64,000 nt of DNA from Acidimicrobiaceae bacterium (lineage in GTDB: Bacteria > Actinomycetota > Acidimicrobiia > Acidimicrobiales > RAAP-2). A program made the translations under genes and the position numbers. The DNA is taken from assembly GCA_027306605.1 (NCBI GenBank), contig DAHUZK010000011.1, positions 1 through 64,000 of the forward strand, given 5' to 3'. The notes beneath the pieces are model-generated. The model was given only the letters and a program-made list of their open reading frames with translations. It was not told where the DNA came from and did not search any database. Shown here piece by piece: positions 26,558-37,163 of this stretch (position 1 is the stretch's first letter; every line of letters begins with the position of its first letter).

Positions 26558-29500
26558 GTGGGCAAGCGGATGCGCGACTTCCATCGGCGTGCCGGTGCAG
26601 CGCGCCGTCTCACGGCCTGGTCGCTGCTGGCCGTACCCGCGGCCCTCCTGGTGGCGCTGGTCGTGGCCCTGGCCGGGGGAGCCGCTCCGGCTTCTGGCGC
26701 CGGGCCCGGGCTCCAGCCGCTGCACGGACGCCAGGGCCAGGTGCCCCCGGGTGCCACGTCGCTCGGCCCGGCGCCTTCGTCGACGGTGCTTCCGCTGACG
26801 GTCACGCTTCAGCCGCGCGATCCGACCGGACTGGCCGCAGAGGCTGCTGCCGTCTCCGATCCCGCTTCCCCCCGGTACCACCACTTCCTCACCCCGCGCC
26901 GGTTCGCCGCGCGGTACGGGCCGACACCCGCCACCATCGAGCAGGTCACCGCCGCCCTGCGCAGCGCAGGCCTCTCGGTCGGCGCGCCGTCGGCGACCGG
27001 CCTGTCCTTGCCGGTCTCGGGCCGCGTCGCCCAGGTCCAGTCGGCCTTCTCCACGCCCATCGACCGCTACAAGCTGTCGTCGGGGAAGACCGGCTACCGC
27101 AACAGCGCGGTCCCCAAGCTGCCGGCGAGCGTCGCTCCTCAGGTCGAGGGGATCATCGGACTCGACACGCTCAGCCCACCGCGTCCCACGGCCAGTCTTC
27201 CGCTTCCGGCCGCAGCACCCGGCCACGGCGTGGGCCCCTCCTCGCCCGTCATCCCCCCCGCCCCCGCCCCCGCCGGCTCCGCCGCCGCCGTCGCCCCCGC
27301 CGGTTCCGCCGGCACCCCGGCGCTGGCGTCAGGACAGCCGGCCCCGGCGGCCGGCAACTGTGCCACCTCCATCAGCACCGTCCAGTCGACGTACGGGGCT
27401 CTCGATGCGCCCCAACTCGCGCAGGCCTACTCGTTCGGCTCGCCCTACTCGTCGGGCGATTACGGTGCCGGCACCACGGTGGCTCTGGTCGAGCTGTCCG
27501 GCGCCGGGTACTCCACCAACGACATCGCCGCCTTCGCCGCCTGCTACGGCATCAGCCTGTCCAGCGGACAGGTGACCCAGAGGGTGGTGAGCGGTGGCGG
27601 CGCGACGGGCAGGGGGACGGTCGAGGCGGAGCTCGACATCGAGACCGTTCTGTCCATGGCGCCCAAGGCCGACATCGAGGTCTACGAGGGCGGGCCCTCC
27701 GCCGACCTCTACGACGTCCTCAGCAGTGTCGTGAACGACGACTCCGCCAAGATCGTGAGCGTCAGCTGGACCAACGGCTGTGAGGCCTATGTCGGATCCG
27801 CCATGCAGAACGCCGAGAACACCCTGCTGCAGACGGCGGCCGTCGACGGCCAGTCGGTCTTCGTGGCCTCCGGCGACCAGGGGTCGGAGGGCTGCAACGT
27901 CAACGGTGTCATCTCGGCGCCGACCGGAGGGTCGCCCGTGGCGCAGGCGGTCGACACCGCCACCGGAACCCTGTACGTGGCCAACCGCTCCGGCAACACG
28001 TTGAGCGTGGACGGCGAGGGCACGACCACGAACCCTTCGGGCTTCTCGACGGCCGGCTCCGTGACCACCGGGACGGCGCCCGACGCCGTCGCGCTCGCAT
28101 CGGGCGCAGGCAAGGTCTTCGTCGCCAACGCCTCGTCGAGCTCGCTCACGGCTGTGTCGACGTCGACCTGCAACCAGGCCAACACGAGCGGTTGCGCATC
28201 GCCGACCCAGGTCGCATCAGGCGGCCATCTGTCCGGACCGACCGCGCTGGCCGCCGACGGGTCCACTCTCTACGTGGGCAACGCCAACGGGACCGTCGCC
28301 GTCTACAACGCCGGCACCGACGCCTACGTGGCCACGGTGGCCCTCCCGACGGGGTCCGTGCCCAGCGCCCTCACCGTCGACACCGGCAGCGGGGTGGCGT
28401 ACGTCGCCGATGGCGCCAACAACAGGATCGCGTACTTCGACACCGCCACGTGCAATGCCGGCGTGACCACCGGCTGCGCCACCACGCCCTCCACGGTGGC
28501 GGTCGGCAACGACCCCGTCGGTCTCGCCGTCGACGATGCCGTCGGCAACCTCTACGTGGCGAACGCCGGCAGCGGTGGTGGTGTCTCCGTGGTCAGCCTG
28601 AGCACCCACACCGTGACGACGACGGTCTCCACCGGCCAACCCTCCGTGACCGGGCTGGCCGGCACGGGCGTCGTCCGGTCGGTGGCGCTGTCCCCGGACG
28701 GGCGTGCGGTGCTCGCCGTCCTCGACGGGCTGAGTTTCCCCGGCGACGTCCTGGCCACCATCGATCCGACGACCGGGGCCATCACCGCCACCGTCAACCT
28801 CCAGACCGGGAGCGACACCATGGGCGCGCTGGTCAGCGACAGCAGCCGCAACCTCGTCTGGGTGACCGACCAGACCGCCGGTGACGACGTCGTCCAGAAC
28901 CTCAACCTCGGCGTGTCGGATCCGGCCAGCCAGCCGATGGTCACCTCCGTCGGCGGTACCTCCATCAGTGCCCTGGGGCCCGCCCCGACCGAAAGCACGT
29001 GGAACGACCAGCTGCACTACGCCGAAGGCGCCGGTGGAGGCGGAATCTCGCGGACCTTCGCCATGCCGGCCTTCCAGCAATCGCTCGGTACGGTGGCGGG
29101 GAGCAGCGGTACGCCCTGTGGCAACGTGAACGGGGATTGCCGGGAGGTCCCCGACGTGTCGGCCGACGCCGACCCCAGCACCGGGTACGTGATCTACGAC
29201 AGCGTCAACGGGTATGGCTGGACTGCGATCGGCGGGACGAGCGGGGCCGCGCCCCTCTGGGCCGCCGTGCTCGCCGTGGCCTCGTCTGCCGACGGCAACA
29301 CCGTCGGCTTCGGGGACCTGAACCCGATCCTCTACGAGCTGGCCCAGAAGTCTCCCGGTACGTACCTGAACGACGTGACCACCGGCAACAACGATCTGAA
29401 CGGCACCGACGGCCAGCAGTTCGCTGCGACGAGCGGCTACGACATGGCGACCGGGCTCGGCACGCCGGTGACCTCCGCGCTCGCCACCGGCCTGAGCGCG

Positions 29501-32389
29501 GTCCCGCTCGACGTCGCCGTGTCGGGGACACAGCCCTACGGCGGTTCGCCCACCTTCACCGCCACTCCCGACTTCGGCGGGTCGACCACCATGCCCTACG
29601 GCGTGGTGATGGTGAGCGCAGGGTTCACCTGTACCGAGGTCGGGACGTCGACGACCATCTCGCCCTCTCTGCCGGTGGGGAGCAACACGCTGGTGACCTC
29701 GTCCTGCAGCGGCATCAGCCTGAGCGGTGCCAACGCCGGCGGCTACAACCTGGTCCTGACCAGCGCCACCGGGGACTTCACGGTCAGCCCGGCCCCGGTC
29801 CAGGTGTCCGTGAGCGGGACGCAGACCTACGGCGGTTCGCCGTCGTTCACCGCGAGTGCCTCCAGCCCTCCGAGCGGCGTCACCGTGGACACGAGCGCCG
29901 TGACCTGCACCGAGGTCGAGCCCTTCAAGTTCATCACGCCCGGCCTGGCCGCCGGGAGCTACACCTTGTTCTCGGGCTCGTGCTCCGGGGTGACACTCAG
30001 CGGGACCGACGCCGCGGACTACGCCCCGTTCTATGTCAGCACGACCGGCAACTTCCCCGTGGCGCCGGCATCGCTCACCGTCACCGGCTCCAGCCCGGCC
30101 ATGACCTACGGCAGCGCGCCGCCCACCATCACGCCGCTCTACAGCGGCTTCGTCAACGGCGACACGGGGTCGTCGCTCAGCACCCAGCCGACGTGCTCGA
30201 CCACGGCCACGCAGACGAGCCCGGTGTCCGGCTCCCCTTATCCCTCCTCGTGCAGCGGCGCCGTCGACCCGAATTACGTGATCGGGTACAGCGCGGGCTT
30301 CGTCACGGTCACCCGGGCACCGCTCACGGTCACGGCGTCGAGCCCGACCATGACCTACGGCAGCGCGCCGCCCACCATCGCGCCGCTCTACAGCGGCTTC
30401 GTCAACGGCGACACGCCGGCCGTGCTCAGCACCCAGCCGACCTGCTCGACCACGGCCACCAGCACCAGCACGCCGTCGACCTATCCATCGTCGTGCTCCG
30501 GCGGGTCCGCCGCCAACTACGCCCTCTCCGACGAACCGGGCAGCGTCACCGTGGGCAAGGCCCTCCTGACCGTGACCGCTTCGAGCGGCACCATGCCCTA
30601 CGGCAGCGCACCGCCCGCCATCACGGCTTCCTACAACGGGTTCGTCAACGGGGACGGGCAGTCGTCCCTCTCCGCGCTGCCTTCGTGCACCACCGTGGCC
30701 ACCAGCGGGAGCGGGGTGGCCGGGTCACCGTATGCCACCTCGTGCTCGGGAGCCGCCGCGGCGGACTACACGTTCTCGTACGTGGCCGGCACGGTCACGG
30801 TGACGAGGATGCCCCTGACCGTTACCGCGTCCGACGGAACCATGACCTACGGCAGCGCGCCGCCCGCCATCACGCCGCTCTACAGCGGATTCGTCAACGG
30901 CGACACGGGGTCGTCGCTCAGCACCCAGCCGGCGTGCTCGACCACGGCCACGCAGACGAGCCCGGTGTCCGGCTCCCCCTATCCCTCCTCGTGCAGCGGC
31001 GCCGCCGACCCCAACTACTCCATCACCGACGACCCGGGGACGGTCACGCTCACCCGGGCACCGCTCACGGTCACGGCCTCCAGTCCGACCATGACCTACG
31101 GCAGCGCACCGCCCACGATCGCGCCGCTCTACAGCGGGTTCGTCAACGGCGACAGCGCGTCGTCGTCGCTCGGCACCCAGCCCACCTGCTCGACCACGGC
31201 CACCAGCACCAGCACGCCGTCGACCTATCCGTCGTCGTGCTCGGGCGGGTCCGCCACCGACTACGTCCTCTCCTTCCAGCCCGGCCTCGTCAGCGTGATG
31301 CCGGCGCCGATCACCGTCACGGTCGTGGGTTCCCAGAACTACGGCAGCGCGCCGACGTTCACGGGGACGACCACGACGCCGCCCGTGGGGGTCACCGTCG
31401 ACGCGGGGAGCATCACCTGCAGCCAGGTCGCGCCCTCGACCACCATCACGCCGGGCATGGTCGGAGGGAGCTACACGCTGGTGCCCGGCTCGTGCCGGGG
31501 CGCGACGCTGAGCGGTTCGAGCGCCGGTGACTATGTGGTGGTCTATGTGGCCGCGGCCGGGAACTTCTCGGTCTTCGGTGGGCCGCCAACCCCACCGCCA
31601 CCAGCCCCGCACGGCTATTGGCTGGTCGGCTCCGACGGTGGCATCTTCACCTTCGGCTCGGCGCACTTCTTCGGGTCGACGGGAAGTCTCCGTCTCCAGC
31701 GGCCGGTGGTCGGGATCACGCCGACCGCAGATCAGGGCGGATACTGGCTCGTCGCGTCCGACGGTGGCATCTTCGCCTTCGGAGATGCCGGCTTCTTCGG
31801 TTCCATACCCGGTCTCGGTCTGGGACCGGCGGGCTCCGGCCCGCACGCGCTGAACGCTCCGATCGTCGGTATGGTGCCCTCGGCCGACGGTGGTGGCTAC
31901 TTCATGGTCGCCTCCGACGGAGGGGTGTTCGCCTTCGGCGACGCGCAGTTCGAGGGTTCGTGCCCGGGGATCGGGGGCTGTAGCGGCGCCGCCGTCTCGG
32001 TCGTCCCCGACGCTTCCGGGCGCGGCTACTGGCTGGTCACCAGGACCGGCAACGTGTACACGTTCGGCGACGCGCCCTATTACGGGGCACCCGGACCGCA
32101 GGCCTCGCCCATCACCGCTGCCGTGCGCAGTGCGGACGGGGCCGGCTACTACGTCCTGCTGGCCGACGGAACCGTGGACGGTTTCGGCGATGCCGTCCCG
32201 CGTGGCGGCCCGGTCGGGGCGGTGGGAGGTCTGAGCCCGGCCTCGGCCATCTTCACCGACAAGGGCGGGGGAGGCTACTGGGTGGCCTCCGCGACGGGAG
32301 CCGTCTTCACCTACGGCGATGCGCCGGCGGACGGCTCCATGGCGGGAACACCCCTCAACGGGGCGATCATCGCCGGAACGGGCTTCTAG
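26558..32389 (+). CDS. secreted S53 peptidase (sedolisin) with nested beta-propeller, MBG-type repeats and C-terminal beta-propeller
   Basis: Signal peptide; pro-kumamolisin prodomain; [15 protein letters not shown] (E/D), [29 protein letters not shown] (Ser), [15 protein letters not shown]-like repeats; MTYGSAPP repeats; GYWLV.SDGGIF.FGDA repeats. Confidence 0.9.
30070..31310 (+). repeat. MBG-type repeat array with 741-bp DNA super-repeat (A-B-C-A'-B')
   Basis: Near-identical segments: GACACGGGGTCGTCGCTCAGCACCCAGCC at 30161 and 30902; ACCATGACCTACGGCAGCGC at 30347 and 31088; offset 741 bp both times. Confidence 0.85.
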
Positions 32390-36149: not shown

Positions 36150-37163
36150 GTGGGGCCCCGGGCGGCACGGGGCGCCGCAGCGCTGGCGGCGGCCGTCGTG
36201 ATGCTCGCCGCCGCGGGCTGCGCCTCGAAGCCCGGGAGCTCGAGCGCTCCGACCACGGCGAGCACGCCACGAGCCACCACCTCGACCGTCCCGCCGCCCG
36301 CGGGCGCGTGGTCCAAGGCGCTGCGGGTGGCGTCGGGCGCGGACCTCTCCGTCGTGTCGTGCCCCGCCGCCGACACGTGCGTCATCGGATCGGCTGCGGG
36401 TCAGACCTACCGGCTCTTCTTCGAGAAGGTCCAGGCGCTCGGTTCGCCGGTGCCCGATCCGTCGCCTCAGGGCAAGGCCTTCGTCTCCTGCGCCACAGCG
36501 GGATTCTGCGCCGCTGCACCGAACCTGAACCAGGTCGCCTTCTTCGACGGATCGGCCTGGCAGGCCCCGTCCACCCTTCCGGCCGCGCAGGGCATCACCG
36601 CCGTCGACTGCACGGGCCCCACCTTCTGCATCACCGTCGACGGCGAAGGTAACTCGTTCGCCTTCGACGGGCAGGGCTGGTCGGGCAATCTCGGTGCCTG
36701 GGGAGCGGCCAACCAGATCTCGTGCACGTCGCCGAGTTTCTGCATCGCCGCCGAGGGCGGTCCCTCCGTCTTCGACGGGAGCTCGTGGACGCGTCCGAGC
36801 AACGTCGACACCCAGGGTCAGCTCAACTCCGTCTCCTGCGCCACCCCGACCTTCTGCGTCCTCGTCGACAGCAGCGGCGACGTCGTGACGTGGAACGGCT
36901 CGGGGTTCAGCGCGCCCGCACCCATCGCCACCGAGCCCCCGCTGACCGGAACCGACGCCTCGGGCTTGACGTCCGTCTCCTGCCCGACCACCGACTTCTG
37001 CCGTGCCGTCGACTCCATCGGCCGGGTGTTCGGTTGGAACGGGACCTCGTGGAGCTCGGGCACGCTGATAGACAACGGCCACGCGCTCACGAGCATCTCG
37101 TGCGCCAGCACCACCTACTGCGTGGCGGTCGACCGCGCCGGCAACGCCTTCGTCTCCGACTGA
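36150..37163 (+). CDS. lipoprotein with seven C-x5-C repeats (predicted beta-propeller)
   Basis: Lipobox AAGC; SCPAADTC, SCATAGFC, DCTGPTFC, SCTSPSFC, SCATPTFC, SCPTTDFC, SCASTTYC. Confidence 0.75.
   Translation: MGPRAARGAAALAAAVVMLAAAGCASKPGSSSAPTTASTPRATTSTVPPPAGAWSKALRVASGADLSVVSCPAADTCVIGSAAGQTYRLFFEKVQALGSPVPDPSPQGKAFVSCATAGFCAAAPNLNQVAFFDGSAWQAPSTLPAAQGITAVDCTGPTFCITVDGEGNSFAFDGQGWSGNLGAWGAANQISCTSPSFCIAAEGGPSVFDGSSWTRPSNVDTQGQLNSVSCATPTFCVLVDSSGDVVTWNGSGFSAPAPIATEPPLTGTDASGLTSVSCPTTDFCRAVDSIGRVFGWNGTSWSSGTLIDNGHALTSISCASTTYCVAVDRAGNAFVSD

Follow-up and report, generated by a model that had tools for sequence, protein, structure and literature searches.

A Predicted Seven-Bladed Beta-Propeller Inserted in the Catalytic Domain of an Acidimicrobiaceae S53 Peptidase, and Similar Insertions in Its Order

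The S53 peptidase gene

The window, i.e., the whole 64,000-nucleotide stretch of DNA analyzed here, contains a gene for a putatively secreted S53 peptidase with an inserted propeller (26558..32389; this and all other window features given below are on the + strand). It is a continuous open reading frame of 1943 aa. The N-terminus (26558..26701) reads like a signal peptide, with a basic region, a long hydrophobic run and an Ala-rich end. A Pro-kumamolisin activation domain follows at residues 65-204 (26750..27169; PF09286, E=9.4e-29). The catalytic domain is in two pieces, residues 299-450 and 788-976, each of which phmmer aligned separately to human TPP1 as half of an S53 domain. The N-terminal half (27350..27895) carries E356 and D360 in the motif EAELD, and D440 in the motif SGD. 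From the invariant and catalytic columns and the kumamolisin alignment, D440 (codon 27875..27877) is the oxyanion-hole Asp, equivalent to kumamolisin D164 and TPP1 D360. The C-terminal half (28919..29512) carries VGGT, the catalytic S895 in GTSGAAP (codon 29240..29242, an invariant column), and DVTTGNN and a second calcium-site motif. Thus the catalytic Glu, Asp and Ser and the oxyanion Asp are all present, as are, at the motif level, both calcium-site motifs near the C-terminus.

Between the two halves lies an insert of residues 448-787 (27899..28918 by gap measurement), which stands where ordinary relatives have a loop of 8-18 aa. The flanking motif on the N-side ends at residue 446 and that on the C-side starts at residue 788; the insertion begins eight residues past the oxyanion Asp. 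In a first-pass annotation, made from the DNA letters, positions 27899-28916 had been read as a propeller of seven repeats that splits the S53 catalytic domain downstream of the oxyanion region and ahead of the Ser motif. Sequence, model and homologues agree with this placement, and the coordinates were correct to within a few bases. Downstream of the catalytic domain, the C-terminal tail consists of five MBG_2 domains (29513..31477, approximate boundaries; PF18676 in five stretches, E=1.8e-65) and YWLV-type repeats recognized by reading the sequence (31505..32386, approximate boundaries). The MBG_2 domains and C-terminal repeats (29513-32386) might build further repeat structure.

All the sequence and fold features tested identify the gene as that of an S53 (sedolisin/kumamolisin) peptidase. 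Its product is probably an active, secreted acid peptidase of this family. Acidophilic lifestyles have been linked to S53 peptidases (PMC6411800), which fits a bog organism. The genome from which the window comes has a second S53 gene without a propeller (G000:C24:7368-9137), a natural control within the same genome.

The inserted propeller

The middle region of the window protein matched the YVTN surface-layer propeller 1l0q at E=3.8e-9 (phmmer), and the insert searched alone matched it at E=1.8e-11. The insert alone also matched the YncE model NF052280 at 1e-7, far under the equivalog cut-off of that model, and the YVTN repeat TIGR02276 at 2.5e-6, where a score of 27.4 bits narrowly missed the cut-off of 27.85. 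The Pfam propeller scores of the window's own protein were under the curated cut-offs.

Residues 50-1000 were modeled with AlphaFold from an alignment of 48 sequences, giving a mean pLDDT of 84.7 and a pTM of 0.81. The model contains 28 strands across residues 453-781 (27914..28900), i.e., seven groups of four. A Foldseek search with the whole model matched intact pro-kumamolisin 1t1e at E=9e-29 and a target TM score (TMt) of 0.88. The insert matched seven-bladed propellers over ~330 columns: 5nuv with a TMt of 0.78, G-beta with 0.65-0.77, a RACK1 orthologue with ~0.74 and YncE with 0.63-0.67. The insert is predicted from these data to be a closed ring of seven four-stranded blades of the YVTN/YncE type. 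The first-pass annotation had proposed an AlphaFold model as the check for a closed propeller, and the 28 strands and seven blades found in the modeled residues bear its reading out. The ring is joined to the catalytic domain by short linkers, ~7 residues on the N-terminal side and ~6 on the C-terminal side. The N-terminal linker has low confidence (pLDDT < 50 at residues 448-453), so the placement of the propeller relative to the catalytic domain may be flexible.

Conservation and divergence of the insert

The same architecture is found in other genomes. G003, a MAG of the same genus, has an identical domain arrangement with 65% identity across the S53-propeller region, and the arrangement is also seen in G492, from another genus of the same family, and G201, from another family of the order. 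GC3 is constant over the junctions of the window gene (0.92 in the N-half, 0.92 in the insert and 0.90 in the C-half). Between the window and G003, identity is 58% in the insert and 73% in the catalytic halves, and dN/dS, by a simple estimate with dS near saturation, is 0.36 and 0.21, respectively. The dN/dS of the insert is 0.13 in a close pair of inserted copies (L109/L110). In most of the pairs compared, the insert has changed more quickly than the catalytic halves; in the window gene, these substitution ratios indicate purifying selection on it. An assembly chimera or a frame error was ruled out by the homologues in other MAGs, the uniform GC3 and the purifying selection.

Loop length across the order

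The survey took in 80 regions around S53 matches, drawn from 397 sampled genomes of the order (inferred to be Acidimicrobiales). Loop length was taken as the distance between profile matches to the N- and C-terminal S53 halves; it was measured in 82 copies, including the window and G003; one further copy, which does not have the N-half, was left out. The sample is skewed to copies most like the query, and the inserted fraction is not a population estimate. The distribution is bimodal: the loop is 8-18 aa long in 60 of the 82 copies and at least 290 aa in the other 22, with none between. G492 is one more inserted copy, bringing the total to 23. Inserted copies are spread over eight families of the order (f1, f9, f33, f39, f43, f45, f48 and f61). 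The search for other S53 proteins with the same kind of insertion, suggested in the first-pass annotation, thus showed that it recurs across the order; the recurrence extends to a second propeller type and to stacks, described below, which that annotation had not noticed.

Searches of the class and phylum beyond the order gave, among the matches listed, strong S53 matches in G742, G639 and G1016 only, all uninserted. A scan of genome contigs, including those of other phyla, found the same-genus relative alone. There was no full-length match in the plasmid search and no match in viral contigs.

Two propeller classes and their stacking

When the inserts were compared all against all, they fell into two sets, and one weak match was the only similarity detected across them. 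Class A is of the YVTN/lactonase type and comprises four proteins from three genera (the window, G003, G492 and G201). One of these, L040 from G201, clears the Pfam NHL and Lactonase cut-offs. Class B comprises 19 copies with a repeat of ~40-48 residues that contains an SC..C motif, for example SVSCASSTFCVAVN...WDGSSWS in L086:3128-4400. In four class-B members scanned against Pfam, the prodomain was the sole family matched, and three members scanned against NCBIfam gave no matches. Since no member scanned matched a propeller family in Pfam or any NCBIfam model, the SC..C repeat propeller is, on this evidence, an undescribed second kind.

Among the 16 class-B inserts with a single propeller, a blade profile detected seven repeats in 13; one spacing in L048 is doubled, a hint of an eighth repeat there. 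The model of a class-B protein, L118, resembles that of the window protein in combining the fold of kumamolisin (1t1e, TMt 0.82) with a propeller of seven blades (the designed protein 7bie, TMt 0.82). Longer inserts are also found. Eleven repeats were detected in a 667-aa insert, where the spacings imply 14, and 17 in a 986-aa insert, where the spacings imply 21. A 993-aa insert (L117) would have ~21 blades from motif spacing alone; the blade HMM detected zero blades in it. Blade counts in multiples of seven, together with the models, suggest that the inserts arrive as whole propellers.

The L117 region (G110:C27:57500-77000) has two S53 genes on the same strand within 20 kb, one with the 667-aa insert (~14 blades) and the other with the 993-aa insert (~21). 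The SC..C repeat also recurs widely within the order. The window itself codes for a free-standing protein with this class-B type of repeat, a 337 aa lipoprotein with a lipobox-like LAAAGCAS (36150..37163), separate from the S53 gene; it is in other families that the class-B propeller is found inside S53 enzymes.

Number of insertions

A careful tree was built from the catalytic halves of 82 rows with the insert columns excluded. The inserted/uninserted state changes four times on this tree, and none of the bootstrap trees has only one change. A single clade of all the inserted copies was rejected by the AU test (p = 0.008 with the careful tree, 0.04 with a quick tree), which argues that insertion probably occurred more than once. 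The quick tree, with three class-A copies, is compatible with one origin for that class (p = 0.70). Three uninserted copies (L041, L042 and L149) nest beside the inserted class-B copy L056, suggesting a loss or a regain. As judged from these sequences, the loop probably received insertions independently at least twice; a swap of propellers within an inserted ancestor is less likely by the tree.

The active site and the host loop

All 79 ordinary copies have the same catalytic Glu, Asp and Ser and the same oxyanion Asp. The same four are identical in every readable copy of the 23 inserted proteins, L071 being masked and L075 cut by a contig end. Thus the insert does not go with loss of the catalytic residues in the readable homologues, an outcome that the first-pass annotation had named as evidence against its proposal. 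Two cysteines flanking the active site are nearly invariant and may form a disulfide pair. The calcium-site Asp positions are retained in the window and most ordinary copies and are altered in most class-B inserted copies (e.g., L053, L117, L079 and L073). The alteration could reflect a lost calcium dependence or a shift in the alignment.

The location of the host loop can be read from an uninserted copy, L050, in which the variable loop, counted from D164, aligns with kumamolisin residues 163-185. The host loop corresponds to about residues 164-179 of kumamolisin and takes in positions 169 and 179, which bear on specificity. The oxyanion-hole residue of kumamolisin is Asp164, and the redesigned enzyme Kuma010 carries D169G and D179H, to which Kuma030 adds S165Q and G169S (PMC5935664). 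The P1 Arg preference of kumamolisin-As is explained by Asp179 (PMC11294657). Since the loop aligns to pocket residues of kumamolisin, the propeller would grow from the substrate-pocket (S1) loop.

Possible roles of the propeller

The chances are about even that the propeller is a recruitment or steric-selection module beside the S1 pocket of an active S53 peptidase. The loop past the oxyanion Asp would have expanded to a whole seven-bladed propeller on two short linkers, and the linkers would keep it near the rim of the pocket. Next to the cleft, the propeller could bind a protein or glycan surface, limit access to the active site sterically, or both. The result would be a higher selectivity or a higher local concentration of substrate, with the pocket itself kept. 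The recruitment or gating role guessed in the first-pass annotation gains plausibility from the correspondence of the host loop to kumamolisin 164-179, with positions 169 and 179, and is carried here as a conjecture. The faster evolution of the insert fits recognition, and it equally fits weak constraint. The latter would be expected if the propeller is a tolerated decoration, the loop being permissive and repeat domains being inserted and drifting with little effect on activity. The several gains and losses on the tree, such as L056 beside the uninserted L041, L042 and L149, and an insert that outpaces the catalytic halves in most pairs are in line with decoration. We consider it unlikely, since the dN/dS of the L109/L110 inserts is low (0.13), and since only whole propellers are found and are kept across families and genera.

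A stricter form of access control would be a gate like that of prolyl oligopeptidase, in which the propeller lies over the cleft and lets in only short or unfolded peptides, a convergence with family S9. The two short linkers from an active-site loop resemble the two-linker hinge of PREP (PMC5446394), and the loop of insertion lines the S1 pocket. However, two unrelated propeller types and stacks of 14 and 21 blades in the same loop are awkward for a fitted lid, and the protein keeps its S53 prodomain, which in the zymogen already fills the cleft; such a gate is therefore improbable. Recruitment or steric selection accounts better for a loop that accepts unrelated propellers, up to three in a row, and this tolerance makes the loop probably a general attachment port rather than the site of a precisely fitted lid. 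The converse extreme, that the insertion kills activity and leaves a pseudoenzyme with a binding or scaffold role, might be suspected from an insertion that starts eight residues after the oxyanion Asp and from the class-B inserted copies, often with changed calcium-site Asp. It is very improbable given that the Glu, Asp, oxyanion Asp and Ser are intact in every readable inserted copy, that the window protein retains both calcium-site motifs, and that the prodomain is kept.

Beyond the recruitment or steric-selection role in the window protein, a broader proposal is possible, to be held tentatively: the S1-pocket loop of the S53 peptidases in this order would be a modular docking port, into which unrelated propellers were inserted repeatedly and stacked by sevens. 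The outcome would be a protease of subtilisin-like fold that is controlled by a propeller and has come by convergence to resemble prolyl oligopeptidase.

Relationship to known systems

An enzyme would be expected to suffer from a large insertion a few residues away from a catalytic residue. In these peptidases, complete propellers appear to have entered a specificity loop more than once, with the catalytic residues intact. The resulting natural series, with no propeller, one of either of two kinds, two or three, could be used for testing the effect of repeat domains on protease selectivity. The loop is also a possible design site at which binding domains might be added to acid-stable S53 enzymes, e.g., the engineered kumamolisins. 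In the open-licence literature on sedolisin, serine-carboxyl, S53 or subtilase peptidases with a propeller, no description of this architecture was found. The S53 family and the propeller fold are known; relative to that literature, their combination, its recurrence, the second propeller type and the stacking of whole propellers are apparently new.

Kumamolisin, sedolisin and TPP1 (MEROPS S53, e.g., 1t1e) share with the window protein the prodomain, the subtilisin-like fold, the Glu-Asp-Asp-Ser residues and the calcium-site motifs. In kumamolisin and the ordinary relatives, however, the loop is short, whereas that of the window protein holds a 340-aa propeller, and its tail adds MBG domains and YWLV repeats. 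YVTN/YncE propellers (1l0q, 3vgz) have in common with the insert the YVTN-like repeats and, in the model, seven blades, but they are free-standing or part of a surface-layer chain, while the one in the window sits in a protease loop. The SC..C propeller of class B is inserted at this same loop of S53 enzymes from other families in the order and is also modeled with seven blades, yet its sequence similarity to the window's propeller is undetectable, one weak match aside.

An analogy in architecture is offered by prolyl oligopeptidase (PREP, S9), another serine peptidase, in which a seven-bladed propeller splits the catalytic domain and is tethered to it by two linkers. It is the known precedent for placing such a propeller beside the active site of a serine peptidase through a hinge of two linkers (PMC5446394). 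S9 enzymes have an alpha/beta-hydrolase fold with a Ser-Asp-His triad; the window protein has the S53 subtilisin-like fold and does not belong to S9. Since the two folds differ, any likeness between them is convergent.
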